Positions 13,818-53,005 of a stretch of 64,000 bases of DNA are shown here, in pieces. Made by a program: the position numbers and the translations under genes. Origin of the DNA: Methanococcoides orientis (lineage in GTDB: Archaea; Halobacteriota; Methanosarcinia; Methanosarcinales; Methanosarcinaceae); assembly GCF_021184045.1 (NCBI RefSeq), contig NZ_CP073710.1:1374685-1438684 (forward strand). Reading direction: 5' to 3'. The notes below the pieces were generated by a model. That model was not told the origin of the DNA and ran no database searches. It was given only the letters and a program-made list of their open reading frames with translations. Positions within the stretch are counted from its first letter, which is position 1. Each line of letters starts with the position of its first letter.

Positions 13818-13819
13818 GC

Positions 13820-29212: not shown

Positions 29213-29289
29213 CAGGCTATAGTAAGTGACACTTAAACTTAACTACTATGATATCATATTTGATATTGATATTAGGGTATGATGATATT
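29213..29289. promoter_or_regulatory. Divergent control region of the casposon core operons
   Basis: This 77-base gap separates the leftward RHH-polB operon and the rightward HTH-cas1 operon. It contains ATGATATCAT at 29248-29257 and repeated TTGATATTGATATT (about 29259-29272), a likely operator for the RHH or HTH protein. Confidence 0.45.
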
Positions 29290-30198: not shown

Positions 30199-30199
30199 T

Positions 30200-31414: not shown

Positions 31415-31428
31415 TTTATGAGGGTTTG

Positions 31429-31472
31429 GTGTCTCGTTTCTATGAACATTAAACAACAATTCTAGGAGACAC
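31429..31472 (+). promoter_or_regulatory. Inverted repeat enclosing a ribosome site
   Basis: GTGTCTC (31429-31435) pairs with GAGACAC (31466-31472), perfectly over 7 bp with a 30-base loop. The right arm contains part of AGGAGA, the ribosome site for the ATG at 31473, so pairing would hide it. It could alternatively act as a 3' end for cas1 mRNA. Confidence 0.35.
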
Positions 31473-31658
31473 ATGCGACAAGTGAAAAGCGAAAGTGTAA
31501 GCGACAAAAAAAGAACAATTAAGAATCTCAAGCAATTCCTTGAGCTTCTGCAAATTCTCATTAAATTATACCTACTGATTTTAGTACGTGCTTTCAGAGA
31601 ATCTCGGGATATTGAAGGGGGGAGATTTGTGCAAACTGAACAATGTGTATCCCTTTAA
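31473..31658 (+). CDS. Possible small basic protein, 61 residues
   Basis: A short frame with a strong AGGAGA ribosome site. It is basic at the N terminus (R-Q-V-K, D-K-K-R-T-I-K) with a hydrophobic leucine-rich middle (L-L-Q-I-L-I-K-L-Y-L-L-I-L-V). No homologue is recognised. The ribosome site is the only support. Confidence 0.3.
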   Translation: MRQVKSESVSDKKRTIKNLKQFLELLQILIKLYLLILVRAFRESRDIEGGRFVQTEQCVSL

Positions 31659-31950
31659 TAGTTTTATTTTTAATGTATTCTAGATAATATTCAATGATTT
31701 GCATTCAGTATATTTTAAATTGGGAAGCAGTGTCTATTTAAAAAATGAATAAAACAAGAGAAAGAGTTAAAAATATTAAAGAATATCCTGAAAGAAAATA
31801 ATAGAGCCAAAGTGAATTAAATTCATATGTCAAGAAGGATGATTAAAATCATTCCAAGGATTATTAAATGAATAAAATAATCCAAATTTAATTTATAAAA
31901 TGTATTTATTGACTAATTTTACCACAGAATAATACTAACGGATTGAGACT

Positions 31951-33588
31951 ATGGAAGAAAACGAAAAATTCTTAGAAGACCTTGACAACAAACTCTGGAC
32001 ATCCGCTGACAAGTTACGTTCCAATCTTGATGCTGCTGTCTATAAGCACGTAGTTCTTGGCCTTGTTTTTCTTAAATATGTTTCTGATGCATTCGAAGAG
32101 CGACGAAAAGAGCTTCTAGAACAATTCAAAGACCCTGAGCATGATTATTATTTAGGCGGGGATGAGGAATTAGAGACTGAAGAACTGGAAATCCGGGACT
32201 ATTATACTGAGAAAAACGTCTTCTGGGTACCGGCACTGGCTCGCTGGGACACATTGCAAAGTTGTGCCAAGCTTTCTTCTGGTGCAGAGATTAACATCAA
32301 AAATGAAAAGATTGATACTTATAAGATGGTAAGTGTGGGTCGTCTTCTTGATGATGCAATGGAGGCAATCGAAAAAGATAATCCAAAACTTAAAGGTGTG
32401 CTAACTAAGGATTATGCACGTTTGCAGATTGAATCCGGTAAGCTTGGGGAATTAATAGATCTTATTGCTACTATACCTTTTAGACACAAAACTCTGAAGG
32501 CAAAGGATATCCTTGGACATGTATACGAATATTTCCTTGGTGAATTTGCTAGCGGAGAAGGGAAAAAGGGAGGGCAGTATTACACTCCAAAATCTATAGT
32601 AACTCTTATTGTTGAAATGCTGGAACCTTTCCAGGGTAGAGTATACGACCCTGCTTGTGGTTCAGGTGGTTTCTTTGTCCAATCGGAACGTTTTGTGGAA
32701 GAACATGGTGGGCGTATTGGACAATTATCGATATACGGCCAGGAATCAAACCCTACAACTTGGCGACTTGCCTGTATGAATATGGTTATCCGAGGTATGG
32801 ATTTTGATTTTGGGAAAGAGTTTGCTGATACTTTCACTCGTGATTTGCATCCAGACCTTCGTGCAAATTACATCATGACCAATCCACCTTTTAATATGAA
32901 AGAATGGGGTGGAGAGTATTTGAAAGATGACCCTCGGTGGAAATATGGTCTGCCCCCCACTAATAATGCCAATTTTGCATGGATGCAGCATATGATTTAT
33001 CACCTTGCACCCAATGGTAGCCTGGCATTGTTGTTGTCTAATGGTTCCATGAGTTCCAATACTAATAATGAAGGAGTGATTCGTAAATCTATAATCGAAA
33101 GTGACCTAGTGGAGTGCATGATAGCATTGCCAGGGCAACTCTTCACGAATACTCAAATTCCTGCATGTATTTGGTTCCTGACTCGCAACAAGGAAGCATA
33201 TAACGAAAACCGAGCACGTAAGGGAGAGACATTGTTTATTAATGCCCGTGATCTTGGTTATATGAAGAATCGTGTTTTACGTGATTTTGATTATGATAAA
33301 GATATTCTTCGTATTGCCAACACTTTCCATGCTTGGAAAAAAGGAGATGGTTATGAAGATGAACCTGGTTTCTGCAAATCTGTAGATATAGACTACATCC
33401 GTAAGCATGAATATGTACTTACTCCTGGTCGCTACGTTGGAGTGGCCGATTTGAAAGACGACGTTGAACCTTTCGAAGAGAAAATGGAAAAGTTGACCAA
33501 GGATTTGTCCAAACAGTTTAAAGAATCAGCACAATTAGAGACTAATATCAGAGTAAACCTTCTAAATGTGGGGTATGAGATTGAATAA
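31951..33588 (+). CDS. hsdM: Type I restriction-modification methyltransferase subunit
   Basis: A 545-residue N6-adenine methyltransferase: N-terminal HsdM helical domain (L-W-x-S-A-D-K-L-R-S-N-L-D-A-A-V-Y-K-H-V-V-L-G), G-G-Q-Y-Y-T-P-K-S-I, SAM motif I D-P-A-C-G-S-G-G-F and catalytic motif IV N-P-P-F. It forms a 2M:1S complex with HsdS. The length is normal. It opens the hsdM-hsdS-SIR2-hsdR cluster and slightly overlaps hsdS. Confidence 0.95.
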   Translation: MEENEKFLEDLDNKLWTSADKLRSNLDAAVYKHVVLGLVFLKYVSDAFEERRKELLEQFKDPEHDYYLGGDEELETEELEIRDYYTEKNVFWVPALARWDTLQSCAKLSSGAEINIKNEKIDTYKMVSVGRLLDDAMEAIEKDNPKLKGVLTKDYARLQIESGKLGELIDLIATIPFRHKTLKAKDILGHVYEYFLGEFASGEGKKGGQYYTPKSIVTLIVEMLEPFQGRVYDPACGSGGFFVQSERFVEEHGGRIGQLSIYGQESNPTTWRLACMNMVIRGMDFDFGKEFADTFTRDLHPDLRANYIMTNPPFNMKEWGGEYLKDDPRWKYGLPPTNNANFAWMQHMIYHLAPNGSLALLLSNGSMSSNTNNEGVIRKSIIESDLVECMIALPGQLFTNTQIPACIWFLTRNKEAYNENRARKGETLFINARDLGYMKNRVLRDFDYDKDILRIANTFHAWKKGDGYEDEPGFCKSVDIDYIRKHEYVLTPGRYVGVADLKDDVEPFEEKMEKLTKDLSKQFKESAQLETNIRVNLLNVGYEIE

Positions 33589-34930
33589 TAATGATTCCAA
33601 ATCATATCCACTTATTCCAATTGGAGAGTTATTGGAAACAATTATTGATTATCGAGGGAAAACACCACCCAAATCTACTTCTGGCATACCGGTACTTACA
33701 GCTGCTAACGTAAGAAATGGACGAGTCATATTAGATAAGTGCTCTTACGTTTCCCAAGAAACGTATGATGAATGGACTACTAGGGGATTCCCAAAACCAG
33801 GTGATGTTCTAATAAGCACTGAAGCACCTGTAGGTGAAGTTGCTTCATTCCCAGGAGACAGAACTTATCTCATTAGTCGTCGTTTGATAGCTTTAAGAGG
33901 AAAGGAAGGAGAACTTGATAATGATTTTCTGAAATACTCCTTGCTTTATACCAGGAACAGAGATTTGCTTTTAGCTTCGACTCGTGGATCTACTGTCCCA
34001 CGTGTTCTTAAAACTGATATCACAAACTTGGTAATTCCAATTCCTCCTTACCATGAACAAAAATTGATTTCTCAAATTCTTAATACATTTGATGAAAAAA
34101 TTAAACTCAATAAGATAATGAACCAGACACTTGAAACTATGGCTCAGGCCATCTTTAAGTCTTGGTTTGTGGACTTTGACCCTGTTAAAGCCAAAGTCAA
34201 TAATGAAAACACCGAATCCATATGTCGTCGTCTCTACTTAACACCTGAAATGCTTGCTCTCTTCCCCAACAGCTTTGAAGAGACAGCAATGGGTGAAATG
34301 CCGAAGGGTTGGAGCATGAAAACTTTGGCAGATATGATTTATCTAACTCGTGGAAAATCCTACAAGAGTAGTGAATTGCAGGACTCTGATACTGCATTAG
34401 TGACTCTCAAATCATTCAAGCGTGGGGGTGGCTACCGACCAGATGGACTTAAACCATATAGTGGCCAATATAAGTCGGACCAAGTAGTTCAACCCGGGGA
34501 ATTGATTGTAGCTCAAACAGACGTAACTCAAAAAGCTGAAATAATTGGTAAACCTGCGCTTGTGCGGCAGGATCAACTCTATAGCACTTTGGTTGCATCA
34601 TTGGATACAGTAATCGTTCGGCCGATTGAAGATCGCATTAATATTCCCTTTCTGTATTGTCTTTTCAGAACAAATGCCTTTCAAGCCCACACTTATGGAC
34701 ACTCAACAGGCACCACTGTTCTTCACCTTAGCAAGCAAGCAATCCCTAGCTACGAGTTTATATGTCCGCCGAAACAATTGATGGATAAGTTTTCTATAAT
34801 TGTAGATTCTGTGATCACTAAAATTGATGCTAATGAGCAAGAAAATAAAAAACTAGCTGCTATCCGTGATCTTTTATTGCCAAAGCTTTTTTCCGGAAAA
34901 ATACGAGTGAACTCATCTGAGGTTGTTTAA
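33566..34930 (+). CDS. hsdS: Type I restriction-modification specificity subunit
   Basis: A 454-residue HsdS with two target recognition domains (about residues 10-160 starting P-L-I-P-I-G-E-L-L-E-T, and 240-390 starting M-P-K-G-W-S-M-K-T-L-A-D-M) separated and followed by conserved coiled-coil helices (E-Q-K-L-I-S-Q-I-L-N-T-F-D-E-K-I-K-L-N, and E-N-K-K-L-A-A-I-R-D-L-L-L-P-K-L-F-S-G). It defines the DNA site recognised by both methylation and restriction. The start may be at 33566 or the ATG at 33575; both overlap the end of hsdM. Confidence 0.93.
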   Translation: MWGMRLNNNDSKSYPLIPIGELLETIIDYRGKTPPKSTSGIPVLTAANVRNGRVILDKCSYVSQETYDEWTTRGFPKPGDVLISTEAPVGEVASFPGDRTYLISRRLIALRGKEGELDNDFLKYSLLYTRNRDLLLASTRGSTVPRVLKTDITNLVIPIPPYHEQKLISQILNTFDEKIKLNKIMNQTLETMAQAIFKSWFVDFDPVKAKVNNENTESICRRLYLTPEMLALFPNSFEETAMGEMPKGWSMKTLADMIYLTRGKSYKSSELQDSDTALVTLKSFKRGGGYRPDGLKPYSGQYKSDQVVQPGELIVAQTDVTQKAEIIGKPALVRQDQLYSTLVASLDTVIVRPIEDRINIPFLYCLFRTNAFQAHTYGHSTGTTVLHLSKQAIPSYEFICPPKQLMDKFSIIVDSVITKIDANEQENKKLAAIRDLLLPKLFSGKIRVNSSEVV

Positions 34931-36033
34931 TGGATAAACTGAGACAACAAGAAAGCCTTATTGAGCAAGCACTTCAGCTGTATTCTGAGAAATACAATAA
35001 TAATAAAGAATTTAATGACTATTATGACAGCTTGGTGATTTCTTTGGACCAACTGGGCTTAAAAAATAGTCTTGTGCTCTTCTGGGGGGATCTTGACTCT
35101 TACAACAACGAAATGGCTGAATGGGAAAACCAAGAAATTGAATCCCAACATGCAGATTGTAAAGAACTATTAAGTTCAGGTAATGCTGACCAGACCTTAC
35201 TATTCAAGGATGTTATCGAAGCCGTTAGACGTCGACGAATTGTTCCATTTGTTGGTGCTGGCTTTTCTAAATATATGGGCATGCCACTTTGGCATGAAGC
35301 ACTACAAGAGATACACGACAAACAACGTAACCCACAATGTGATGTGTTTGATAAGTATTTGAATGAAGGCCATTATTTGGATGCTGCACAACTTCTCGCT
35401 GACAAAGATCAAGATGTCATGAACAATTTCATAAGAACAAAATTTCGTGTCCAAAAAATAGAAGGGCCAGTCCAACTTTTACCAATGATTTGCAACGGAT
35501 GTGTTGTGACCACAAACTTCGATGATTCAATTGAAGAAGTGTTCAAGCAGGCGGACAAAGGATTCGATGCATATATGCATGGCACTCAACAACACACATT
35601 TTTTTCGCGACTTGTTAAAGGGGATCGCTGCATACTGAAAATACATGGTGATGCAGATGATAATCCAGATACGTTTGTTTTTACACAAAGCCAGTATGAA
35701 AATGCCTATGGGAACCCATTCGATTTTACAAAATCATTACCCAAAGCTTTAAGGCAAATTTTTGTAAGTAACTCCCTTCTTTTTGTTGGTTGTAGCCTTG
35801 ATCAAGATTGGACTCTGAAGTTGTTCAAGGCGGTACGGGATCAAGATGAGTATGAATTGCCAACTCATTATGCTATTCTGGAGGAACCACCTCAAGAAGA
35901 AATACTAGAAAAAGAAGCTGATCTCCTGAAATGCAATATTCACCCAATCTGGTATCCTGCAAAAGAATACGATTCTGTAGAAAAGCTACTAAACTTAATA
36001 ATTGATGCAGTGAATGGTCGGATTAATCTATAA
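34930..36033 (+). CDS. SIR2-like protein within the Type I RM operon
   Basis: A 367-residue protein with a helical N-terminal domain (about 1-90) and a SIR2-family NAD-binding domain: V-P-F-V-G-A-G-F-S-K, V-T-T-N-F-D-D-S-I, L-K-I-H-G-D and L-L-F-V-G-C-S-L-D-Q-D-W. SIR2 domains in defence genes (Thoeris ThsA, DSR, AVAST types) deplete NAD on infection. The ATG overlaps the hsdS stop by one base (TAATG) and hsdR begins 15 bases after, so it is translated with the RM genes. It may be a back-up abortive module when restriction fails (inference). Confidence 0.85.
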   Translation: MDKLRQQESLIEQALQLYSEKYNNNKEFNDYYDSLVISLDQLGLKNSLVLFWGDLDSYNNEMAEWENQEIESQHADCKELLSSGNADQTLLFKDVIEAVRRRRIVPFVGAGFSKYMGMPLWHEALQEIHDKQRNPQCDVFDKYLNEGHYLDAAQLLADKDQDVMNNFIRTKFRVQKIEGPVQLLPMICNGCVVTTNFDDSIEEVFKQADKGFDAYMHGTQQHTFFSRLVKGDRCILKIHGDADDNPDTFVFTQSQYENAYGNPFDFTKSLPKALRQIFVSNSLLFVGCSLDQDWTLKLFKAVRDQDEYELPTHYAILEEPPQEEILEKEADLLKCNIHPIWYPAKEYDSVEKLLNLIIDAVNGRINL

Positions 36034-36048
36034 GCCTGGGTGTGAGCC

Positions 36049-39000
36049 ATGATAAACGAAAATGAACTAGAAAATCTGATTCTGAATTGGTTTCAGGACG
36101 TTGGTTGGAGCTATATTCCAGGCACCAATATTGCTAACGACGGTCAAACACCCGAAAGAGAAGATTATGGTCAGGTGCTATTGAATGGTCGGATTCTCAA
36201 GGCACTACATCGCCTCAACCCGGAAGTGCCTGCACCAATATTGGAAGAGGTGTTGAACCGACTCGCTAAGCCGGAACATCCATCTCTCATACAGAACAAT
36301 CACTCTTTTCATAAGATTCTACTGGAAGGTTTTCCTGTAGTTTATGAAAAGGATGGTGAGAAACGTGGGGATAGAGTACGGCTCATTGATTTTGAGCATC
36401 GTGAGATGAATCAGTTTCTTGTTGTGAACCAGTTCACTGTACAAGGTCTGAAACAACTACGTAGACCCGACATTGTTGCCTTCATAAATGGATTTCCCAT
36501 TGCTGTAATTGAGTTAAAGAATCCAACCGTCGAGCAGGCGGATATATGGGCTGCATATCATCAATTGCAGACCTATAAGAATGAGATATCCGATCTCTTC
36601 ATGTTCAATGAAGCGATGATAATCTCAGACGGGTTCAATGCTCGTGTTGGTTCACTGACTGCATCAAAAGAATGGTTCATGCCCTGGCGTACCATCCGTG
36701 AAGAACAGGACAAACCTCTTCTAGAGTATGAACTGGAAAAAATAGTTCGTGGTTTTTTTGACCCTGATATGCTGCTTGATTATCTTAGGTACTTCATACT
36801 TTTTGAACCTACAGGCGATACGTTTGTGAAGAAAATTGCAGGTTACCATCAGTTCCATGCTGTGCGTGAAGCAGTTTATACAACTATAAGAGCTGCTGGA
36901 TTGTCGACAAATACTGAAGAAAATGGAACACTTGGGGAATATACAAACAAAGTGGAACCTGGCTCAAAGCGTGGTGGAATAGTCTGGCACACACAGGGTT
37001 CAGGCAAGAGTATCTCCATGGCCTGCTTTGCCGGTAAACTAATGCAACAATCGGAAATGCAGAATCCTACTCTTGTTGTAGTCACCGATCGCAATGATCT
37101 TAATGGTCAGTTGTATCAAACTTTTGTTAATGCAAAGATGTTGCTCAAGGAAACACCTGTAAAGGCTGAAAATCGTGATGAATTACGCGAGCTACTTGCT
37201 GGCCGCCCTTCAGGTGGAATCATTTTTACTACAATTCAGAAATTCATGCCCAGAAAAGGCGAAAACCATTACCCAAAACTCACCAATCGTAATAATGTTG
37301 TAGTGATAGTCGATGAGGCTCATCGCAGCCAATATGGGTTCCAAGCTAAATTAGATGCTGATGTAGGGGCTTTCAAATACGGCTATGCTCATCACATGCG
37401 TTCAGCATTACCCTCAGCAACGTTTGTCGGTTTTACCGGTACTCCCATTGAAAATGATGACAAAGACACTCGTAAAGTTTTTGGATCTTATGTAAGCATT
37501 TATGACATCCAAGACGCGGTAATGGATGGTGCAACTGTGCCTATTTATTACGAAAGCCGCCTCGCAAAATTGGATATAAAACAAGCTGATATCGACATAC
37601 TTAATGAGGAAGTAGAGGAAGTTTTAGAGGATGAGGAAGATCTTGCTCTGCGTGAGAAATCAAAATCCCATTGGGCAGCTTTGGAGCAACTGGTAGGAGC
37701 CGATAAGCGAATAAAAGAAGTAGCTAAGGACTTGACAATGCATTTTGATAATCGGAATGCTTCCATTGAAGGTAAAGGTATGATTGTCTGCATGAGCCGT
37801 GAGATATGTGTGAACATGTATAATGCTATCACGGAATTAAAACCACAATGGCACAGAGAAGACCCACATAATGGGACTATAAAAATTATTATGACGGGAT
37901 CTGCTTCTGATGACGAACTCCTTCAGCCCCATATCTATAACTCCCAGACAAAGAAGATGCTGGAAAAACGTTTCAAGGATCCGAATGACCCTCTTAAAAT
38001 TGTCATTGTGCGTGATATGTGGCTCACAGGATTTGATGTTCCATGCCTTCACACAATGTATGTGGACAAGCCGATGCGTGCTCATAACCTAATGCAGGCT
38101 ATAGCTCGTGTGAACCGTGTATTCCATGAAAAGCAGGGTGGTCTTGTGGTTGACTATATCGGTATTGCTTCAGAACTTCGCTTAGCTCTGAAAACATATG
38201 TTGAGAACCGAGGTAAGGGAACGCCTACTATTGATGCCTCTGAGCCTCTAGGAATACTCAAAGAAGAGATGGAAAAGGCTCGTGACATGTTCCATGGATT
38301 TAATTATGACGATTACCAGGATGATGCAGCTGAATTACTTTTACCAGCAGCGAATCACATCCTTGGTCTTGAAAATGGACGAAAACGCTATTTTGATGTG
38401 ATTGTCGCGATTTCAAAAGCATATTCATTATGCGGAACTTCAGATGATGCAATGAAAATTCGCGAAGAGATTGCATTTTTCCAGGCAGTTAAGGTAGTTA
38501 TTTCCAAAGCATCTAACAGTGATAAAAAAATAGCCGATGAAAAGAAGAACCAAATCATCAAACAAATTCTTGACAATGCTCTCTTATCAGAAGGTATCGA
38601 GGATATCTTCAAATTGGCAGGCTTAGAAAAACCAGACATTAGCATTTTGTCTGATACATTTCTCGATGAAATCAGGCATCTACCACAGAAAAATCTGGCA
38701 GTAGAGTTATTGCAAAAGCTTCTTCGGGATCAAATAAAATCACGAGTTCATAACAATGTGGTACAGGAGCACAAGTTCAGTGAGCGCTTAACTGCCTCTT
38801 TGAACAGATATCATGGTCACACTATCAAAAGCGCTGAAATTATAGATGAACTAATCGCTATGGCCAAAGAATTCCGTGAAACTGCAAAGCGTGGTGATGA
38901 GCTTGGGCTCAATGATTCAGAATTAGCTTTCTACGATGCCCTAGCAAACAATGAAAGCGCTGTTCATGAATTGGGTGATGAGACTCTTAAGATAATTGCA

Positions 39001-39204
39001 CTGGAATTGACAGAAAAGCTACGTAAAAGTACAACAGTAGACTGGCAAAAGCGAGATAGTGTACGTGCAAAACTACGTAATCTAGTTCGCATAACTCTGC
39101 GTCGCTATAAGTATCCACCTGACAAACAAAAAGAGGCCATTAAACTCGTATTACAACAAGCCGAACGTTTGTCGGATGATTGGAGCAAAGATGTTGAAAA
39201 CTAA
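36049..39204 (+). CDS. hsdR: Type I restriction-modification endonuclease/translocase subunit
   Basis: A 1051-residue HsdR. The N-terminal PD-ExK nuclease has R-P-D-I-V-A-F-I-N-G ... I-E-L-K-N. SF2 motor motifs follow: Walker A T-Q-G-S-G-K-S (near residue 322), V-D-E-A-H in motif II, F-T-G-T-P in motif III, and Q-A-I-A-R-V-N-R in motif VI. The C-terminal helical domain binds the MTase. Length and motifs are complete, so restriction should work with hsdM and hsdS. It is the last gene of the casposon. Confidence 0.95.
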   Translation: MINENELENLILNWFQDVGWSYIPGTNIANDGQTPEREDYGQVLLNGRILKALHRLNPEVPAPILEEVLNRLAKPEHPSLIQNNHSFHKILLEGFPVVYEKDGEKRGDRVRLIDFEHREMNQFLVVNQFTVQGLKQLRRPDIVAFINGFPIAVIELKNPTVEQADIWAAYHQLQTYKNEISDLFMFNEAMIISDGFNARVGSLTASKEWFMPWRTIREEQDKPLLEYELEKIVRGFFDPDMLLDYLRYFILFEPTGDTFVKKIAGYHQFHAVREAVYTTIRAAGLSTNTEENGTLGEYTNKVEPGSKRGGIVWHTQGSGKSISMACFAGKLMQQSEMQNPTLVVVTDRNDLNGQLYQTFVNAKMLLKETPVKAENRDELRELLAGRPSGGIIFTTIQKFMPRKGENHYPKLTNRNNVVVIVDEAHRSQYGFQAKLDADVGAFKYGYAHHMRSALPSATFVGFTGTPIENDDKDTRKVFGSYVSIYDIQDAVMDGATVPIYYESRLAKLDIKQADIDILNEEVEEVLEDEEDLALREKSKSHWAALEQLVGADKRIKEVAKDLTMHFDNRNASIEGKGMIVCMSREICVNMYNAITELKPQWHREDPHNGTIKIIMTGSASDDELLQPHIYNSQTKKMLEKRFKDPNDPLKIVIVRDMWLTGFDVPCLHTMYVDKPMRAHNLMQAIARVNRVFHEKQGGLVVDYIGIASELRLALKTYVENRGKGTPTIDASEPLGILKEEMEKARDMFHGFNYDDYQDDAAELLLPAANHILGLENGRKRYFDVIVAISKAYSLCGTSDDAMKIREEIAFFQAVKVVISKASNSDKKIADEKKNQIIKQILDNALLSEGIEDIFKLAGLEKPDISILSDTFLDEIRHLPQKNLAVELLQKLLRDQIKSRVHNNVVQEHKFSERLTASLNRYHGHTIKSAEIIDELIAMAKEFRETAKRGDELGLNDSELAFYDALANNESAVHELGDETLKIIALELTEKLRKSTTVDWQKRDSVRAKLRNLVRITLRRYKYPPDKQKEAIKLVLQQAERLSDDWSKDVEN

Positions 39205-39452
39205 GCAGGTTAAATAGTTCATGTTTAGAGTGATTTATTTTCCTGCATGTAGTTTTTTAACTCAAATATGAAAAAATGTGTTGGAATAAAAACATATGTT
39301 TTTTTCTTTTTCTAGGCAATAGCATAACTTTTAGCAGCTGTCTTATTTTGTTTGACTAATACAAAAACGAACTAATATCACTTATTTATAGAATTCAGTT
39401 ATTATATTATTTTTTGATTAATCCCAAGTTTGACAGTCAAAATAAATATTAG

Positions 39453-39502
39453 TGTTCTTAGTTATGTTGATTCGATCAAAAACGCAACAACAACTAAGAA
39501 CA
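39453..39502. repeat. Long inverted repeat downstream of hsdR
   Basis: TGTTCTTAGTT (39453-39463) pairs perfectly with AACTAAGAACA (39492-39502), and TGTTG (39465-39469) with CAACA (39485-39489) inside it. The result is a 16-bp hairpin with a small internal bulge and a 15-base loop. It may protect or end the hsd mRNA or be a small RNA. Confidence 0.5.
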
Positions 39503-39841
39503 TACGAAATAGTTCCTAATACCAATTATCCTTTCCAATTAGAACCATTCTTGCTGTTGAAAAATTTTATGATATCTTGAATTTTAACTCTGTTTTCAGC
39601 AAACACAAGCTAGAAACTGATTGAAACTGTTAAATTTGGGATTGATATAAATTCTAAACTATTTTGAAATAGACTTTCACTTTGTCATTAACCCCATAGA
39701 TAATTTCAAAAAATCGATTTACAAGATGTATTTTTTGATGAATAATATATATTTTTAATTTCAACTTTCCTCAATTAAAATAATAAAACACCCTAAAATT
39801 ATGAGTATCTATTTTTCAAGATACCTATTACCCCAACTTTC

Positions 39842-39863
39842 TATGCGAGGGGTAAGATTCGAA
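39842..39863 (-). other. tRNA-Leu-like 3' segment inside the casposon end
   Basis: On the minus strand GTTCGAATC is followed by TTACCCCTCGCA, closely matching the end of the target-site tRNA fragment at 23021-23041. The T stem does not pair well, so it is not a tRNA. It may be captured target DNA or a homing signal for tRNA-Leu sites. Confidence 0.4.
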
Positions 39864-39897
39864 CTCAAAAAAATCAAAATCTCAATTCAAAATTTGT

Positions 39898-39929
39898 AGC
39901 GTACACTTTTTTCACGTTATATATATCCC
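39898..39929. repeat. Right terminal inverted repeat of the casposon
   Basis: Reverse complement of the left repeat with one difference (T for C at position 16). It directly abuts the right target duplication. Confidence 0.92.
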
Positions 39930-39943
39930 CGCAGAATACTTCG
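39930..39943. repeat. Right copy of casposon 14-bp target duplication
   Basis: CGCAGAATACTTCG, identical to 23038-23051. Confidence 0.9.
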
Positions 39944-39967
39944 GGGATATAGGTAACGTGAAAAAAC
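39944..39967. repeat. Second, diverged casposon end adjoining the duplication
   Basis: GGGATATAGGTAACGTG followed by a run of A resembles the first 24 bases of the left casposon repeat, differing at three positions, and then diverges. It is placed exactly where an element end should lie relative to CGCAGAATACTTCG. It is best read as the left end of an older casposon inserted at the same site. No matching right end was found in the window. Confidence 0.65.
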
Positions 39968-40371
39968 GGAACTTTTTAAATTTTAAATTGGTATTAGTAT
40001 GCTTGGATGCTGATTCTTGCCTAAGGTTAAAATATTGAGAATCGCATAAAAATCATCAAGCTTTTCTAAGTACGAATATAAAAGTTTATAATCTAGCATA
40101 TTAATTAAATGTCATGTTAGAAAAAATTGAGTTAGATTTCTTTTTTGGGAACTATCACAAAGACCTTTTAATGTAACTCTGGCTCTGTAGAAATCCGAAT
40201 ACCTGCTTAATATTCTAAGCATGAATTAGCTTAAAAAGGAGTGCTACAAATTGATACTGTATAACATCAATAAATCTGTTAGTTACAGATTTGTATTAGT
40301 TTATAGAGGATTTCTACAGAGCCTAGGAAATATAGTGATACATCACTTATTGCCCTTCATCAAATGGAGAC
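39968..40371. other. Non-coding stretch after the second casposon end
   Basis: AT-rich with no gene. Its only recognised content is the 143-bp inverted-repeat element at 40181-40323. Confidence 0.5.
40181..40323. mobile_element. 143-bp MITE-like element
   Basis: The ends are perfect 16-bp inverted repeats: GGCTCTGTAGAAATCC (40181-40196) and its complement (40308-40323). A near-identical end (GGCTTTGTAGAAATCC) occurs alone at 40859-40874. The interior has no gene. No target duplication is clear. It probably derives from an insertion sequence whose transposase is elsewhere. Confidence 0.6.
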
Positions 40372-40794
40372 TCAGTCCTCCAAAGGCGAATATTTGGCAG
40401 CTATAACCCTTATTACACCCAATGCCAGTAGCAATGCCGATAGACTTAAAACAAATTCATATTCAACTTTGTGGGCATAAACCTCAGATGCGATTTCACG
40501 CATGACGAGTAAAATCGTAGCATCGGTTATATATGTAAGTCTGATTCGCTCATGTTCACGATAATCAACAAAAGTCTTGAAAAGGTCAATAAGAACAAAA
40601 ACTGTGAGAACACTAACTACTACATCAATAAAATCTATATGAATAAAATTGCCTTCAAGAACCTCAAATATAATTAAGCCGAGACTCACAAAAATATTTA
40701 GCACTCCCACAATTAGCGCTATTAGCAGTACATAAAGGATGGAAAAAGTGACTGAACGTATTACTGTATCAAATATTTTATCATGAGTTATCAT
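40372..40794 (-). CDS. PsiE-family membrane protein
   Basis: A 140-residue membrane protein with four hydrophobic helices. The loop V-L-T-V-F-V-L-I-D-L-F-K-T-F-V-D-Y and the T-D-A-T-I-L-L-V-M-R-E-I-A segment fit the PsiE (phosphate-starvation-inducible E) family, whose function is unknown. The frame extends upstream to 40845; I prefer the M-I-T-H-D-K start at 40794 since the extra residues overlap AT-rich DNA near an IS end. It lies between two IS-like ends. Confidence 0.65.
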   Translation of the reverse strand: MITHDKIFDTVIRSVTFSILYVLLIALIVGVLNIFVSLGLIIFEVLEGNFIHIDFIDVVVSVLTVFVLIDLFKTFVDYREHERIRLTYITDATILLVMREIASEVYAHKVEYEFVLSLSALLLALGVIRVIAAKYSPLED

Positions 40795-40841
40795 TTGTCC
40801 CACACTCGTCCAAATTAGGCTAATAGTAATTAGCATTGATA

Positions 40842-41006
40842 TCAATATATAGTTTTTCGGCTTTGTAGAAATCCTCCTGAAAACAGATGATGAAAGGTGT
40901 TCAATAGAGTGACAATCCCTCCGCCATATGCGTACATTGACATTGCTCCAACAACTGTGAGTGGTGTAAAAACGATGTACTTAAAAAATCCTGCTTCATA
41001 TAACAT
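40842..41006 (-). pseudogene. Truncated membrane protein remnant at an IS end
   Basis: A 54-residue frame (M-L-Y-E-A-G-F-F-K-Y-I-V then a hydrophobic stretch G-A-M-S-M-Y-A-Y-G-G-G) that runs into the IS-like end at 40859-40874 and stops just after it. There is no ribosome site. It looks like a fragment of a membrane protein cut by insertion; the family is not recognised. Confidence 0.25.
40859..40874. repeat. Solitary IS-like end
   Basis: GGCTTTGTAGAAATCC differs at one base from the ends of the 40181-40323 element and has the same orientation as its left end. A matching right end is not found nearby. Confidence 0.5.
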
Positions 41007-41231
41007 GAAGAACTATATTATGTTATAAAGATATGAAATTTCGAAAACAACAAGGAGAAGTCTTCGTTTTTTGTGTTAACGAGATACCAAAATACAGATG
41101 AAGGGCCTTTCCGGAAAGACCTCACGATGCCTGGTGGATGCATTGAGCGGTGCGTTCAATTATTTCAACCGGAAGAGTGTGCATGTTCCGAGGTTTAGTT
41201 CTGGATTCGGTGTGAGCGGTGGGTTGAGGGT

Positions 41232-41399
41232 TTAATATTTATTGACCTCTGTGACTTGGCGTTTAAAGATAATGCTGTTCCCACATATTGCAACGAGTTC
41301 CCAATTTGAAGATCCATGTTTATTTAGTTGTCTTTCAAAATTTGTCCCGTCTATTTCGTCGACAAGATATTCCCAGTGATTTTTTTCTTCATAAGGCAT
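41232..41399 (-). CDS. DUF4177-like small protein, 55 residues
   Basis: A short protein reading W-E-Y-L-V-D-E-I-D ... L-N-K-H-G-S-S-N-W-E-L-V-A-I-C ... I-I-F-K-R, which is the DUF4177 pattern (a strand, a helix ending in L-N-x-x-G-x-x-G-W-E-L-V, and a strand). A good GGGAG ribosome site lies nine bases before the ATG. The function is unknown. It survives within the degraded casposon region. Confidence 0.55.
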   Translation of the reverse strand: MPYEEKNHWEYLVDEIDGTNFERQLNKHGSSNWELVAICGNSIIFKRQVTEVNKY

Positions 41400-41815
41400 A
41401 TAAAACACTCCCTAAATTAATATTGCAGTAGCATTACTTTAATCTAATCCTGCATGATTGTCAACTTTCCTTTTTATATTCCCATCACTCAGCTCCACCT
41501 ATGAGCTTTATCAATCTCTTATTTTCATCCAAACCTCAACCCAAAAATTCAAATCCCGTAGATGCATTTGCCAGCTCCGACCCTACGAAACCTACGCTTC
41601 TAACTTAAAATGGATCTCTGAAACCAAAACCAAACTTCCCAATGGAACAACATTCAACATCACTTCCACAATGCACAAGGAAGCCTTCTAGGCAGATCCT
41701 CTACTGAAAGGTACCATCACACCATTCCTGAAGAATGCAGTCATTGGAACGTACCACATTGAGACTGAGGACGACAAAAAACATGAGGTATTCATCCAAG
41801 AGATCGAAGAATATC
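41400..41815. other. Degraded DNA before the cas1 C-terminal remnant
   Basis: On the plus strand, broken frames around 41590-41820 read like former coding DNA (K-W-I-S-E-T-K-T-K-L-P-N-G-T-T, a stop, then K-N-A-V-I-G-T-Y-H-I-E-T-E-D-D). I do not recognise the protein. A similar broken piece, L-S-G-K-T-S-R-C-L-V-D-A-L-S-G, lies at about 41103-41235. Confidence 0.35.
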
Positions 41816-41984
41816 TCAATTCTCCAACCTCTCCCTGACATGAGCATTGAGAGTAAACGGCTTATCACTCATAGCATTCTGCTTCATGTAGTGCAATGTG
41901 CCTTTAGAGAACCCCATCTCCTTCCACTCGGTGTAAGGCATGTCAATGATCTTCTTTCTCAACTGCTTGAATACTGCCTAAAGT
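41816..41984 (-). pseudogene. cas1 (casposase) C-terminal remnant
   Basis: The minus-strand frame reads L-R-K-K-I-I-D-M-P-Y-T-E-W-K-E, then M-G-F-S-K-G-T-L-H-Y-M-K-Q-N-A and S-D-K-P-F-T-L-N-A-H-V-R-E-R-L-E before a stop. This matches the HTH-bearing C terminus of the intact casposase at 31240-31400 almost residue for residue. The rest of the gene is missing upstream. Confidence 0.85.
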
Positions 41985-42067
41985 AAATTTCAAAAATAGT
42001 TTTGTACCTACAAGTCAGTTTAGTAAATGAAAATATAGAATCACATACCAAAATCAGGAGTAATATA

Positions 42068-42697
42068 ATGACTAAAATAGCTTATCTTTACGTTCTTAAC
42101 ACGATGGCCGACTGGGAGCCGAGTTACCTGATCGCGGAATTGAATTCCGGCCGTTATTTCAGGAAGAATGCAAGCGAATACACGGTCAGGACAGTAGGTA
42201 TTACAAAAGAGCCTGTTGTTACCATGGGTGGGTTGCGTATTGAGCCAGACATTAGCCTTGATGAATTAATGACTGACGATGCCGGAGTGCTGATCCTGCC
42301 AGGTGGCGATACCTGGCTTGAAGATATTCACACGCCAATACTGGAGAAAGCAAAGGAGTTCCTGGATGCAGGTATCACTGTTGGTGCCATATGTGGTGCA
42401 ACTCTGGGTTTTGCTAAAGCCGGCCTTCTGGATAACAGACTCCATACAAGTAACGATCTGGATTACCTGAAAACGGTCTGTCCCGATTACACCGGAGAAT
42501 CATTTTATCGTCAGGAGCCTGCTGTGACTGATGGTAACCTTATAACTGCCTCAGGGATTGCCCCTCTTGAATTCGCAAAGGAAGTTATCAGGAACCTGGA
42601 TATATTTTCGGCCCAGACCCTTGAAGCATGGTATCAGTTATATGTTACTCATAAGACGCAGTATTTCTATGCAATTATGGAGTCGCTGGAAGAGTGA
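42068..42697 (+). CDS. DJ-1/PfpI family protein
   Basis: A 209-residue class I glutamine amidotransferase-like protein of the DJ-1/PfpI group: L-I-L-P-G-G-D-T-W-L, the nucleophile elbow V-G-A-I-C-G-A-T with its reactive cysteine, and T-A-S-G-I-A-P-L-E-F-A. Members act as proteases, chaperones, deglycases or glyoxalases. The start at 42068 is supported by AGGAG; the frame upstream has no ribosome site. It appears intact although cas1 remnants flank it on both sides. Confidence 0.85.
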   Translation: MTKIAYLYVLNTMADWEPSYLIAELNSGRYFRKNASEYTVRTVGITKEPVVTMGGLRIEPDISLDELMTDDAGVLILPGGDTWLEDIHTPILEKAKEFLDAGITVGAICGATLGFAKAGLLDNRLHTSNDLDYLKTVCPDYTGESFYRQEPAVTDGNLITASGIAPLEFAKEVIRNLDIFSAQTLEAWYQLYVTHKTQYFYAIMESLEE

Positions 42698-42792
42698 GGT
42701 AAGAGTTTACAGTGTATTTTAGGTTTGGTATTCTGCTCCATGTCGTGCAAAAATGGATATATAAAAAACTAAGATATTCTTTGTTAAGGGAA

Positions 42793-43059
42793 TTAAAAGA
42801 TGGGAACAATGGAATTAGGCGCATTTTCAGTTAGTCTTAATGTAAAGGATATTGAAGCTTCAAGGTTAGGAACAGCTTTAGCATACTCATTCCAGTATTT
42901 CCAGGCAATTCCACCTTCAATACCAAGTATCTCTCTTATGGATTTAGCGTTCTCAAGTTTAGCCTTATCATCAGAGAAATCAGACTCAATCTTCTCCCCG
43001 AATTTTAGATCTTTTACTTCCTGGCTGAAAGCAGGGAATAGAAGCTCACGATATTCCAA
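42793..43059 (-). pseudogene. cas1 middle-domain remnant
   Basis: The frame contains A-K-S-I-R-E-I-L-G-I-E-G-G-I-A-W-K-Y-W-N-E-Y, matching residues 153-174 of the intact casposase and including its catalytic-type glutamate. Both ends stop matching Cas1 after about 30 residues on either side, so only the middle of a gene is left. Confidence 0.8.
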
Positions 43060-43091
43060 GAGGGATTATCAAACTTCACAACTTAGACCCT

Positions 43092-43739
43092 TCAGCTAAC
43101 ATCTGCATTGTTGCTGTAGCCCTTGCTTTCCCAGTATCCCTGGTAATCCTCGTCAGTTACTTCTATCTTCACTATCCACTTTGCCCACTTGTAACCATAT
43201 TTGCCTTCCGCAACAAGCTGCAGCGGGAATCCCTTGTCAGGAGGCAGTGTTATGTCATTTATTTTGTAGGCTGCAATTATGTTGTTACCCAGTAAATAAT
43301 CCAATTCAAGAGCTGTGGAATAGCCCTCTTTGGAATAGAAAATGACAGTCTTCGCCCTTTCCTGCAATCCGGCTTCATTGAACATGGTCTCCAATTTAAC
43401 CCCGGTCCATTTTGCATCATATCCCCAGCCTTCCCCATAATTAAGGGTTACTGCCTTTGAAACGGATGGATATGCCAGTATGTCATCATAAGTCAGGACA
43501 ATCGTCTTGTTTACCAGTCCGGTTATCTCGAGCCTGTAATCGTCAGGATCAAGATACTGTATTCCCTTGAGGGAATAGGTTTGCTGCTCGTTAATCGGGG
43601 TAAGCTTCACACCATCATATTCCAGTGTCTCGGTTTCGTTCGATGGGAATACTTCTTTCTTCTCCCCGGGAGGAAATTGGCCGGGTCCTGCTGAAAGTAA
43701 AAACGGAAGAAGTTGTAAAGCACAAAAGAAATTTTTCAT
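43092..43739 (-). CDS. Sulfite oxidase-fold (YedY-like) protein lacking the Mo cysteine
   Basis: A 215-residue exported protein with a short N-terminal hydrophobic segment and an oxidoreductase molybdopterin domain: Y-R-L-E-I-T-G-L-V, L-T-Y-D-D-I-L-A-Y-P, G-W-G-Y-D-A-K-W-T-G-V, and L-P-P-D-K-G-F-P-L-Q-L-V ... Y-G-Y-K-W-A-K-W-I. In active enzymes a Cys before E-G-W binds molybdenum; here that segment is L-N-Y-G-E-G-W with no cysteine. Cofactor binding without the thiolate, or a non-enzymatic role, is possible. The start at 43739 is preferred because GGAGTG lies upstream and it gives a signal-like N terminus. Confidence 0.7.
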   Translation of the reverse strand: MKNFFCALQLLPFLLSAGPGQFPPGEKKEVFPSNETETLEYDGVKLTPINEQQTYSLKGIQYLDPDDYRLEITGLVNKTIVLTYDDILAYPSVSKAVTLNYGEGWGYDAKWTGVKLETMFNEAGLQERAKTVIFYSKEGYSTALELDYLLGNNIIAAYKINDITLPPDKGFPLQLVAEGKYGYKWAKWIVKIEVTDEDYQGYWESKGYSNNADVS

Positions 43740-43948
43740 GTTATTTTCACACTCCGGGCATGCGAATCCTTTTGCAGGCTTATATAGCTTTTCACGATTC
43801 TTCTGCATCTTGATTGTTGATGTACTCGTTGAATTGCAGGACAGTTAATTTTGGATCTCTTGTGTTCATACCATTTCCTTAAAAGACTTGCTATGTAAAT
43901 TATGTCGTTTTAAATGAATTATGCAGTGCAAAATTACAGGTATCTAAT

Positions 43949-44290
43949 TTAGGATGAAATACACTCGACTAATTTTTCCACTGCATCCGTATTCAAATTA
44001 ATATCATTATTCGCCAGAATCCTATCCTTTATCCTCTTGAAAGTGCCTCTGTTTACACCCCATTCTTCAACCTGTGATTGAGACAATTCAAGTATATTTC
44101 TCATAATGTCCTGCTTGTCAATGAACACCTGTGAACGCTTAACATCCAATTCCTGTTCATCAATGTTGTTAGCTTCCTTTCCAATATATATTACAGAATC
44201 AACATGAACATGCTCCCTTTCAAGAACCCCAACCTCACCATCAAACTTATGCTCAGGATGTTCCACATACTGCATATTTGTCCTGCTCAA
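43949..44290 (-). pseudogene. Casposon polB C-terminal remnant
   Basis: The frame matches the last 110 residues of the intact casposon polymerase: H-P-E-H-K-F-D-G-E-V-G-V-L-E-R with H-P-E-A-K-F-E-G-D-V-G-V-L-Q-R, then V-I-Y-I-G-K-E-A-N-N with V-Y-I-G-K-E-A-N-K, then R-I-K-D-R-I near the end. Upstream polymerase motifs are absent, so this is a fragment of a second casposon. Confidence 0.85.
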
Positions 44291-44364
44291 GTCGTTGAAT
44301 TCGGATAGATTTTAATTTTGCTAAGGATCAAATTTATCTTTTTGAAGACTTAAGCAGTATAGTT

Positions 44365-44859
44365 ATGGAACAAGATCTCTCGATTCCACCAGTAATTATC
44401 CGACCTGCAACCGAAATTGACACTGCCCAAATAATGATCTTCATCAGGTCCCTTGCTGAATTCGAAAAATTAGCTCACACACTGACAGCAACCGAAGATG
44501 ACCTGAAAACTTCTTTATTCGGAAAAGAACCATGTGCCGAAGCAGTGATAGCTGAGATCAACAACAACCCCGCCGGATTAGCACTCTATTTCCACAACTT
44601 TGCTGCATATATTGGAAAACGCGGGCTCTACATTGAAGCTATATATGTCGATCCTAAATATCGCGGATTAGGGGTTGGAGAAGCACTTCTAAAACATTGT
44701 GCGAAGATTGCAAAAGAGAGAGATTGCGGGACAATGGATTGGGTAGTTCTGGACTGGAATCCTGCAAGGAAATTTTATGAGAAAATGGGTGCTAAAGCAG
44801 AAGATGAATGGGTTTTTCACACCCTAGATGCGAAGGGAATAGATGATCTTGCAGAATGA
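44365..44859 (+). CDS. GNAT acetyltransferase (diamine/thialysine-type)
   Basis: A 164-residue GNAT enzyme. It has I-R-P-A-T-E-I-D at the N terminus, L-Y-I-E-A-I-Y-V-D-P-K-Y-R-G-L-G-V-G-E-A-L-L as the acetyl-CoA pyrophosphate loop (R-G-L-G-V-G), and W-N-P-A-R-K-F-Y-E-K-M-G-A at the C-terminal motif B. The pattern L-A-E-F-E-K-L and D-L-x-x-x-L-F-G resembles spermidine/spermine and thialysine acetyltransferases. The substrate is not certain. It lies between polB and cas1 remnants. Confidence 0.85.
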   Translation: MEQDLSIPPVIIRPATEIDTAQIMIFIRSLAEFEKLAHTLTATEDDLKTSLFGKEPCAEAVIAEINNNPAGLALYFHNFAAYIGKRGLYIEAIYVDPKYRGLGVGEALLKHCAKIAKERDCGTMDWVVLDWNPARKFYEKMGAKAEDEWVFHTLDAKGIDDLAE

Positions 44860-44900
44860 ATACATTCGTGTACTTTATTTCAAATTCATTTTCATCTATT

Positions 44901-44981
44901 TGAGAGCTTCAAGGCTCAGAGATCCACTTCTGCCATACACAACAATACTATATCCCCTCAATTCTCTACTAGAGGTTGTAA
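44901..44981 (-). pseudogene. cas1 N-terminal remnant
   Basis: The frame reads R-E-L-R-G-Y-S-I-V-V-Y-G-R-S-G-S-L-S-L-E-A-L-K then stop, matching residues 42-63 of the intact casposase (D-V-D-S-I-V-V-Y-G-Q-T-G-N-I-T-L-D-A-I-R). It is short, but the V-V-Y-G core and spacing are specific for the casposase. Confidence 0.7.
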
Positions 44982-45079
44982 AGTTATTAGACATTGAGAA
45001 TAGTAAGCAGGATTGAAAATCAAAATTGATCAAAGGAAATGTAAAAAGATTTAAAAAAAATGAAAATAGAAATGTTCGG

Positions 45080-45577
45080 TCACTGGACCTTTGCCTGAAC
45101 TTCCTTTGCAAAATCCTTTGCTTTCTGAAGATGAGCTTCATCTGGCTGTCCTTTTGCAGCTGGTCCCAGCGCAGCAAATGCCTTCATCTCAGGGTCATCG
45201 GACTTTTCGAGCATATCAAGAACTTGCTGTGCAATTTCACCCTGACACTCAAATGTACCAAGTAAATTACCCTTGGCTGCGATATCCTTTAATGATCCAG
45301 TCCATGATTTAATGGCCTCAAATCCTTCAGGAACACCATGGGTCATGAAGAATGCTATGTCCTTACCGGCTACATTCTCTTTTACTATTTTTGAAACATT
45401 CTCCGGAACATTAAATTGTAATACAGGGAAACCTACGAAGACAAGGTCATAACCTTCAAAGTTGCTTAGATCCTTGATGTCTTTGATTTCCTTTTCATCA
45501 GCAATTTCATCATAAATAGCTTCTGCGATCTTCTTTGTGTTTCCTGTCTGTGACATATATGATACTAATGTTTTCAT
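45080..45577 (-). CDS. Flavodoxin
   Basis: A 165-residue flavodoxin-fold electron carrier: the FMN phosphate loop S-Q-T-G-N-T-K-K, V-F-V-G-F-P-V at the second strand and F-F-M-T-H-G-V-P at the third. The start at 45577 has a strong GGTGGGAG site; the longer frame adds an unlikely hydrophobic N terminus. About 70 bases upstream AATGTACGAACATT (45646-45659) resembles the palindrome at 46881, hinting at shared redox regulation. Confidence 0.85.
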   Translation of the reverse strand: MKTLVSYMSQTGNTKKIAEAIYDEIADEKEIKDIKDLSNFEGYDLVFVGFPVLQFNVPENVSKIVKENVAGKDIAFFMTHGVPEGFEAIKSWTGSLKDIAAKGNLLGTFECQGEIAQQVLDMLEKSDDPEMKAFAALGPAAKGQPDEAHLQKAKDFAKEVQAKVQ

Positions 45578-45732
45578 GAACTCCCACCTTATAATTGATA
45601 TAAAAAATAGGTTGTACAAATTTATAAAGATGCGGGTTGGTAAAATGTACGAACATTGAATTGGTACAGATAAATATACTATAAAAAAGGACCTTTGCAA
45701 GCTTTATCATTAACAGAAACCTTCTGCCCTCA

Positions 45733-45810
45733 TCATTCCAGCCTCTCCCTTACATGACCATTAAGCGTAAAAGGCTTATCAGCTTCAATATCGCCTCCCC
45801 TGAACTTCAT
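45733..45810 (-). pseudogene. Second cas1 C-terminal remnant
   Basis: The frame reads E-A-D-K-P-F-T-L-N-G-H-V-R-E-R-L-E and stop, almost the same as the C-terminal E-A-D-K-P-F-T-L-N-A-H-V-R-E-R-L of the intact casposase. As another C-terminal remnant lies at 41816, at least two older cas1 copies existed here. Confidence 0.75.
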
Positions 45811-45824
45811 TTCTCGTTTAATAT

Positions 45825-46217
45825 TCATAACTTTTCATGTGGGAACATCAAAGTAAAATTCCCATCCTCGAGTATTTCTATGTTCACGGTCCTCTTTTTT
45901 CCATCAGGGAACTCGACCTCACCGATATAACTCGATTCAACTGCATCCTCAAAACCATGGCTTAATGTTCTCAAAAGCAAACTACAATTCCGAATCAGGT
46001 CCAAAAAATTTGGCATATTAACCGTATCTCCGTCCTCCTCGAACATTCCAGCCTCCATAACACCCATGCTCACATAACCAAAGAACGGAGGAGCCAATCT
46101 TTTTCCACTAGGACTCAAGACCTTATCAAGGTCCATGAATTTACCATCTTTCACTGCATCCTGAATAGTATAAACCTTTTCAAACAAGTCCTCTGATCCC
46201 TCATTTTTGTCAGACAT
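45825..46217 (-). CDS. Unknown soluble protein, 130 residues
   Basis: A soluble alpha/beta protein without a recognised family. Visible traits: an acidic N terminus, L-S-P-S-G-K-R-L-A-P-P-F-F-G-Y, a helical middle, and a final beta segment S-S-Y-I-G-E-V-E-F-P-D-G-K-K-R-T-V-N-I-E-I. The ATG at 46217 follows GGAGGGAAAGGAGA; the frame extends upstream to 46337 but without such a site. Confidence 0.5.
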   Translation of the reverse strand: MSDKNEGSEDLFEKVYTIQDAVKDGKFMDLDKVLSPSGKRLAPPFFGYVSMGVMEAGMFEEDGDTVNMPNFLDLIRNCSLLLRTLSHGFEDAVESSYIGEVEFPDGKKRTVNIEILEDGNFTLMFPHEKL

Positions 46218-46373
46218 TCTCCTTTCCCTCCACACTCTTCTATCATTCTCTAAATTCATACCCATCGCATGATCTTTCAGGGTTATAGCTAACTGCCATT
46301 TTTTGTACGCTAACAATTTAGGCAATAAGAATAGCAAAATCTTAAAAAATGTAGGATGAAGTCATTTCCAGAT

Positions 46374-51148: not shown

Positions 51149-51449
51149 CTTAGACAACTCAAACCGAAATTCCTTTTTTAACCAGCATTAGCAGAGTTCA
51201 CCGAAAAATCGATTTTACCGAAAATTGATTCAAATAGATGCAATGTTGTTGACGTATTCCCCGAGAGATTACCAGGCTAGGATCACAGCCAGTTGATAAA
51301 AGTTCGTTAGCTCCCACCCTCATATTCTATATTTATCGAGTAAATGCAACTATGGTTCAGCCCCTACATTCATACAGTTAACACATTTGTGCGATGTTTT
51401 CATATACAACTTAATTGAAATATATTGGCAATGTTGGGCGTGGGAATAA
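51149..51449. other. Intergenic region with conserved upstream module, copy 3
   Basis: From about 51213 to 51449 it is the third copy of the module that also precedes 13212 and 14609. No gene is present. The TATA-like AAATATATTGGC and TTGGGCGTGGG before the ATG are at the same positions as in the other copies. Confidence 0.75.
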
Positions 51450-52883
51450 ATGCAAATGAAATCAGGTAACACCTTCTATATTGCAATAACAATTATCTTT
51501 TTGATAATAACATCGAATAGTGTAGCAGCAGCTACGATTACTGTTGATGATAGTGGGAATGCAGATTATACTACCATTCAAGCAGCCATCGACACTGCAA
51601 ACAACGGTGATACAATCCTTGTTAATCCTGGAAAGTATTCAGAAAACATTGATGTGGACAAGGAGTTAACAATAATAGCAGAATCTGGATATCCAGATGA
51701 TACGACTGTTCAAGCCGTAAACCCAGATGATCCTGTATTTCATGTAACTGTAAATAACGTGACAATCAGCGGATTTAATGTGACAGGTGCTAATGGCACT
51801 GAAAAAAACAGTCCTGCCTATGGAATATATCTTGATGGAAGACATGAATTTGTTATCGCTAATGATAGCGAAGTCCAGGGTTGTACCATTACTAACAATC
51901 AATTGTCAAACAATAGCATAGGTGTCTGTTTGGAGGACTCCAGCAATAATGTACTGAGTAATAATACTGCATCAGACAACCGTATCGCCATCTCTTTTGG
52001 GAGTTCCGACAACAGTAAGCTAAGTAATAATACTATATTGAACAATGAAAGAGGAATTCTTATGATTGGAAGCTCTAATGACACATTTAACAATAACAAT
52101 ATTTCGAACAACGGGATTGCTATTGTTTTGGTCATTTATAGCAACGACAATACGTTTAGCAATAACATAGCTTCGGACAACGAACATGGTATCTACATTA
52201 GGGACTCCTCAAATCTCACACTTATAAATAACACTGCAAACTTCAACAAACGTGACGGAATATACCTTGATCGTTCCTACTATAACGTGCTGGAAGGCAA
52301 CACAGCAAATTCAAACGGTGAACATGGAATTTATCTTAATGAATTTTCCTGGGGCAATTATCTGGGAAACAACACTGCTTCGAATAATGAGCACGGAATC
52401 ATGTTGTATTATTACAGCGACCATAACTCATTGATCAATAATACTGCAAACTCGAACGAACAATATGGTATCTATCTGAATGAAACCAGTAACAACAGTA
52501 TCGAGGAAAACACTGCAAACTCGAACAAAATGCATGGAATATACCTGAAATCCTCCACCTTCAATACGATTGTTAATAATACTGCAAACTTGAACGACCA
52601 TCACGGTATCAACCTCAATCAATCCAATAACAAAACTGTGAATACTGATATCATAACACATGATTTCAAATATTGCAAGTTCCTTGAAGATTCCAGCAAT
52701 AACAATACCGTGAGTGGAAATCATCTATTCGAGAATGGCAAAGGTCTCGTTGCAAATGTTTCTGAAAATAACATCGGCATCAACTACATCAACGATAGGG
52801 GAATTACCGAGATGCCTTTTATCGGTTCCGTGCTGACATTGATCATATTGGGAATTGCATTTATGTTTATAAGAAGAGAATGA
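51450..52883 (+). CDS. NosD-like beta-helix surface protein, paralogue of 16334
   Basis: A 477-residue protein with the same length, signal peptide (M-Q-M-K start), NosD motif, about 13 beta-helix turns and C-terminal anchor as the cargo gene at 16334, and near-identical sequence over most of its length. Differences are concentrated around residues 120-215. It lies outside any terminal-repeat element I can see, yet shares both the upstream module of 14609 and the downstream 70 bases of 16334, so it looks like a recombined copy of the element's genes or the source of them. Confidence 0.8.
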   Translation: MQMKSGNTFYIAITIIFLIITSNSVAAATITVDDSGNADYTTIQAAIDTANNGDTILVNPGKYSENIDVDKELTIIAESGYPDDTTVQAVNPDDPVFHVTVNNVTISGFNVTGANGTEKNSPAYGIYLDGRHEFVIANDSEVQGCTITNNQLSNNSIGVCLEDSSNNVLSNNTASDNRIAISFGSSDNSKLSNNTILNNERGILMIGSSNDTFNNNNISNNGIAIVLVIYSNDNTFSNNIASDNEHGIYIRDSSNLTLINNTANFNKRDGIYLDRSYYNVLEGNTANSNGEHGIYLNEFSWGNYLGNNTASNNEHGIMLYYYSDHNSLINNTANSNEQYGIYLNETSNNSIEENTANSNKMHGIYLKSSTFNTIVNNTANLNDHHGINLNQSNNKTVNTDIITHDFKYCKFLEDSSNNNTVSGNHLFENGKGLVANVSENNIGINYINDRGITEMPFIGSVLTLIILGIAFMFIRRE

Positions 52884-53005
52884 GATGCAACAGGCTTAAT
52901 TAAAAGACTGTTGAGAGGATGGGAGTCAAAGCGAGGGATAATTTATTCTATTTTTTGACCGATAAATACCCTATTTTTCAGACAAATCTGCCAAAACAGA
53001 TAACC

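Follow-up and report, generated by a model that had tools for sequence, protein, structure and literature searches.

Casposon relics in Methanococcoides: cas1 3' stubs that appear to mark the borders of exchanged gene modules

The 3' stubs of cas1 that are left by decayed casposons appear, from sequence comparison, to coincide with the borders of gene modules exchanged between Methanococcoides species. Casposons are mobile elements related to Cas1, the protein of CRISPR. The stubs were followed from a window of 64,000 nucleotides (G000:C1:1374685-1438684) in a single-contig Methanococcoides genome of 2.49 Mb, and compared across 11 genomes of the genus, with M. vulcani and M. seepicolus among the named relatives. 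The window holds one intact casposon, called casposon A, followed by fragments of casposon genes. The best explanation of these fragments, and a reasonably probable one, is a stack of casposons in which core loss left outward-facing 3' ends and neighbouring DNA was exchanged at the stubs.

Five casposon-gene fragments, every one on the minus strand, were found at 41.8-45.8 kb by tblastn. Here, the queries were casposases and PolBs, including those of other casposons of the genus besides the window's own, and the target was 39.2-46.5 kb. The scores of 94, 83, 120, 36 and 33 bits all exceed the maximum of 27.7 bits (median 21.2) from 300 dinucleotide shuffles, the cas1 N terminus and the second cas1 C terminus by a narrow margin. 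This confirms the original prediction, which had placed pieces of cas1 and polB on the minus strand with coordinates that are correct to a few tens of bases (Table 1). It had also held that two C termini require at least two source copies of cas1. This is agreed, and a search with full-length casposase finds about a dozen cas1 relic places in this genome. The first cas1 3' stub is 91% identical in DNA to a relic at 963 kb, and the PolB 3' stub is 84-88% identical to stubs at two further loci (L177 and L106). Casposase and PolB are present at 39944-45804 as fragments only, none intact, and these remains appear to be a relic, not a family 2 casposon capable of moving.

Table 1. Features of the island, with positions in the window
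Feature	Position	Strand	Basis
Entire island, missing from sister genome G010	22943-45804		Flank matches to L096
tRNA-Leu-like 3' end, landing site of casposon A	23016-23041	+	Sequence reading, pattern search
Target-site duplication CGCAGAATACTTCG, 14 bp, left copy	23038-23051	+	Sequence reading
Intact casposon A	23052-39929		TIRs, RES-domain cargo, PolB, HNH-like gene, two further core genes, casposase, type I restriction-modification
Intact PolB of casposon A	25364-28054	-	Pfam DNA_pol_B
HNH-like gene of casposon A, 118 aa	28047-28403		Sequence reading and conservation within core
Intact casposase (Cas1) of casposon A	30161-31414	+	Pfam Cas_Cas1 2e-66
Target-site duplication CGCAGAATACTTCG, second copy, common to casposon A and older element	39930-39943	+	Sequence reading
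Terminal repeat of older casposon, back to back with right TIR of casposon A	39944-39995	+	nhmmer 4e-13
Block common to sequence beyond cas1 stubs at 2,486.7 kb (90%) and in G004 (85%)	41206-41515		Sequence comparison
cas1 3' stub, aa ~349-396	41819-41979	-	tblastn 41,962-41,819, 85-89% identity, 92-94 bits
DJ-1/PfpI gene, core of apparent exchanged module 41,979 to ~42,889	42002-42697	+	Pfam
Truncated gene 5' end	42800-42867	+	Reading of ORF 42800-43099; cut at identical place in G006
cas1 middle fragment, aa 137-178	42868-42993	-	tblastn 86%, 83 bits
Molybdopterin-binding oxidoreductase gene, divergent paralogue	43092-43808	-	Pfam
PolB 3' stub, aa ~776-886 of second PolB type	43947-44299	-	tblastn 44,299-43,967, 54%, 120 bits
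GNAT acetyltransferase gene	44365-44859	+	Pfam
cas1 N-terminal fragment, 17 aa	44899-44949	-	tblastn 82-88%, 31-33 bits
Flavodoxin gene, module 44,952-45,740	45080-45700	-	Pfam
Second cas1 3' stub, aa 368-395 (28 aa), at right border of island	45736-45819	-	tblastn 46-57%, 32-36 bits

The fragments lie in a 22.9-kb island, of which they occupy the distal 5.9 kb and casposon A the proximal part. A sister Methanococcoides genome, G010, has ~55 bp in place of the island: window 19544-22942 corresponds to L096 13179-16579 (92.5%) and window 45805-46249 to L096 16635-17081 (83%). A comparison with related genomes had been proposed in the original prediction, and it yielded this empty site as well as the same stub type in every Methanococcoides genome searched. 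Casposon A is a family-2-type casposon with TIRs that are 86% alike across 57 bp. Together with a second casposon of this genome (casposon 2), it resembles the family 2 elements MetBur-C1 to C3, MetPsy-C1 and the M. mazei casposons in its casposase, PolB, HNH-like and further core genes, and in its TIRs, short target duplications and tRNA-Leu-type 3' end targets. At the landing site of casposon A no tRNA was called by ARAGORN; the tRNA-like 3' end stands alone, the rest of the tRNA being absent. Within the cargo (window 31951-39204), the type I restriction-modification system has an extra gene matching ThsA-type defence models, which sits between the specificity and restriction subunits. On the minus strand at 39833-39865, inside the right end of casposon A, a second tRNA-Leu-like 3' end is followed by TIR-like sequence, as if from an older nested insertion. 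Elsewhere in the window, large ORFs at 12964-17851 and 51203-52965 have long common repeats that are 59-89% identical.

The terminal repeat of the older casposon begins directly after the second 14-bp duplication and is 82% identical over 51 bp to the repeat that abuts casposon 2 at 965,478. Casposon 2 is followed by the same design at 965.5 kb, and two repeats also stand back to back at 691.9 kb. As the older repeat lies directly behind casposon A, the site appears to be a tandem array in which one casposon is intact and at least one other has decayed. The right-hand terminal repeat of the older element was sought with the TIR profile and not found. Tandem casposon arrays and an adjacent decayed copy have already been reported (PMC4046053; PMC9939771). 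Taken together, the structure of casposon A, the older repeat and the empty site in G010 suggest a stack of casposons whose distal part is formed by the fragments. Casposon 2 itself (L007 10494 to L008 10424; G000:C1:965494-985319) lies at tRNA-Leu(TAA), has TIRs that are 98% identical and a polB split by a frameshift, and carries a type I-B CRISPR-Cas locus beside its own casposase. This locus comprises cas3-like, cas5, cas7, a large cas8b-like gene, cas6, a repeat array, cas1b and cas4, while its cas2 is possibly broken.

Across the 11 Methanococcoides genomes there are at least 233 casposase matches, some of which are CRISPR Cas1 or separate hits to a single place, and 14 of the matches listed are near full length. 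Matches are present in every genome searched, at 10-39 per genome with intact ones counted. The first scan used the casposase C terminus itself, so the scan was redone with full-length Cas1 on account of ascertainment. Among the matches listed, the 3' end of cas1 (aa 385 or beyond) is kept in 97 of 133 fragments, against a mean of 6.2 and a maximum of 17 under random placement. The polB fragments are likewise mainly 3'-terminal, and the cas1 3' bias is also seen in other genera of the family. Where casposons are intact, polB and cas1 usually diverge (polB<-...->cas1) and point outwards, which makes both 3' ends the edges of the core. At 1,580.6-1,581.1 kb, PolB(-) is joined directly to cas1(+), and this is the type of junction that core deletion would leave. 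Separately, same-strand PolB-Cas1 chimeras, partly in-frame, were seen in several genomes, at L009 8437-8968, L097 5949-6182, L159, L178 and L145. The known divergent core cannot give such joins by one deletion, and more steps are needed. In addition, an AT-rich sequence of ~460 bp and odd composition replaces the middle of a G001 cas1 gene (L167 886-1345). When compared with all loci, this filler matched other AT-rich stretches; AT-rich sequence is also found near other casposon pieces at L097 7363-7800 and L252 5415-5782.

The relation of stubs to module borders was examined with 107 stubs, 150-bp segments and thresholds of 80% and 80 bp. Pairs of stubs that share the near upstream segment also share the far upstream in 19/20 and the downstream in 2/20, while those sharing the near downstream segment have the far downstream in common in 12/16 and the upstream in 2/16; the pairs include relatives and are not independent, and a module shifted by a few hundred bases escapes detection. 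Within pairs that were preselected for flank sharing, the stub has diverged further than the flank shared by the pair in 12/13 and 10/11. The sequence that follows an intact cas1 in G005 is found again, at 97%, behind a stub in G007. A group II intron-like sequence was observed at L220 and L226, where it ends at the identical place in two different cas1 3' stubs. One upstream family looks like the end of an apparent group II intron, and intron insertion would then explain that pair.

Between the fragments lie DJ-1, sulfite-oxidase-fold (molybdopterin oxidoreductase), GNAT and flavodoxin genes, which are intact and, by Pfam, of the families originally assigned to them. The DJ-1 block recurs in G006 (96% over 1,064 bp) and G007 (96% over 910 bp). 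It is 99% identical to G006 as far as the stub, at which identity drops to ~80%, and it behaves likewise in G007. The block adjoins other casposon pieces in G006, and its far end meets the cas1 middle piece here versus a cas1 N-terminal and PolB piece there. The truncated gene at this end seems to resemble the glyoxalase/VOC family. The flavodoxin block occurs twice in G001 (83% and 78%), both copies starting at 44,952, the left edge that abuts the cas1 N-terminal piece. Thus, the DJ-1 and flavodoxin genes appear to recur in other species as units that end at or near casposon pieces. For the molybdopterin oxidoreductase, the only relatives found in the genus are 57-61% identical, with a further copy at 426.8 kb, and no counterpart of the GNAT gene was found among the collected casposon-fragment loci. 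The reading as exchanged modules applies to DJ-1 and flavodoxin.

These recurrences bear on a plainer account, in which a single old casposon, whose cargo was DJ-1, oxidoreductase, GNAT and flavodoxin, was broken in place by deletions and rearrangements while the genes were kept. Such decay would fit the presence of every fragment on one strand, the fitting position of the older terminal repeat and the empty site in the sister genome. It is nevertheless unlikely, as G006 and G007 have the DJ-1 block at 96-99% identity, next to further casposon pieces in G006, flanks are swapped at stubs across the genus, and the identical cut gene end adjoins a middle piece of cas1 in this window and an N-terminal one in G006. 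Already weakened by single genes that recur with unrelated neighbours across stubs, single in-place decay fits poorly with modules common to other species. The original description of the region as a casposon graveyard holds for remains of more than one cas1 copy, but it is incomplete. The pieces are more than one element decaying in place.

In the favoured explanation, that of a casposon stack with core loss and exchange at the stubs, a recent casposon inserted at the tRNA-Leu-like 3' end, before the terminal repeat of the older casposon, as the TIRs and target duplications show. The core of the older element was probably lost by deletion, and what is left is mainly cas1 and polB 3' ends that face outwards, whose position at the core edge is observed. 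Stubs of this kind are scattered through all Methanococcoides genomes searched and decay as pseudogenes, as four pairs show. The upstream and downstream modules would recombine independently at them, the stub itself often being replaced, which is the pattern seen among the stub pairs. Exchange may proceed through recombination or gene conversion, in which a stub pairs with another stub or with cas1 of a newly arriving casposon. The DJ-1 and flavodoxin genes would have reached their places between casposon pieces as exchanged modules. Four findings count against this explanation. The older element yielded no right-hand terminal repeat, and the same-strand PolB-Cas1 joins are beyond what one deletion in the known divergent core can give. 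At ~110 bp and 80% identity, the stubs offer ordinary homologous recombination a poor substrate, and several longer stubs have intact ORFs, which allows for some selection.

Homologous recombination in M. mazei has been reported to need at least 800 bp of similarity (PMC10359463), which would make it difficult for 110-bp stubs to recombine by plain homology; an active role of the casposase is considered at low probability. It is doubtful, though conceivable, that the cas1 3' end is a recombination site at which gene modules are linked by the casposase or by a host factor, in an integron-like system of Methanococcoides. The likeness to integron cassettes, a resemblance only, lies in single genes that are parted by a recurring sequence of ~100-150 bp and exchanged between genomes. 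The separators here differ in being pseudogene fragments, and no integron tyrosine integrase was found among the 41.8-47.7 kb ORFs scanned with Pfam.

A further idea is that the 3' ends were kept as small DNA-binding repressors of casposition, built on the HTH that family 2 Cas1 and PolB are published to have in common (PMC4046053; PMC9939771). This HTH is encoded by both retained ends (PMC4046053), codon position 3 is the most variable in the stubs, and several stubs have open frames. The casposase of casposon A has a C-terminal extension that is common to other casposases and resembles the PolB C terminus; no HTH model matched it. However, stops are present in 15/91 stubs, and the position-3 excess may be inherited from functional ancestors. 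Orthologous stubs with both flanks shared (four pairs) have stops or indels, frameshifts among them, and the stub is clearly more diverged than its flanks in 2/4. In these four pairs, the stubs decay as pseudogenes. Retention of the HTH by selection is improbable and is not supported by codon positions or orthologous stubs. LINE elements produce 5'-truncated copies by 3'-anchored copying. Copying of this type would give the fixed 3' edge and variable 5' truncation, but it is very improbable and was not supported, as polB behaves alike at its own 3' end, some subfamilies have common sequence past the stop codon and a core-deletion-type junction exists.

Tandem Tn7 islands, a comparison made in PMC4046053, are similar in their repeated insertion at one target with older copies inactivated. 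They differ in having another transposase, and module shuffling at transposase-gene ends is unmentioned in PMC4046053. No description of the genus-wide family of 3' stubs or of its border role was found in the literature searched, which covered few subscription papers. The stubs indicate that the trace of casposons in the host is lasting and countable and is located where flanking DNA was exchanged, and they may serve as a means of finding genes that moved along with casposons. Should the stubs act in recombination, the ends of archaeal transposase genes would play the role of integron cassette sites.
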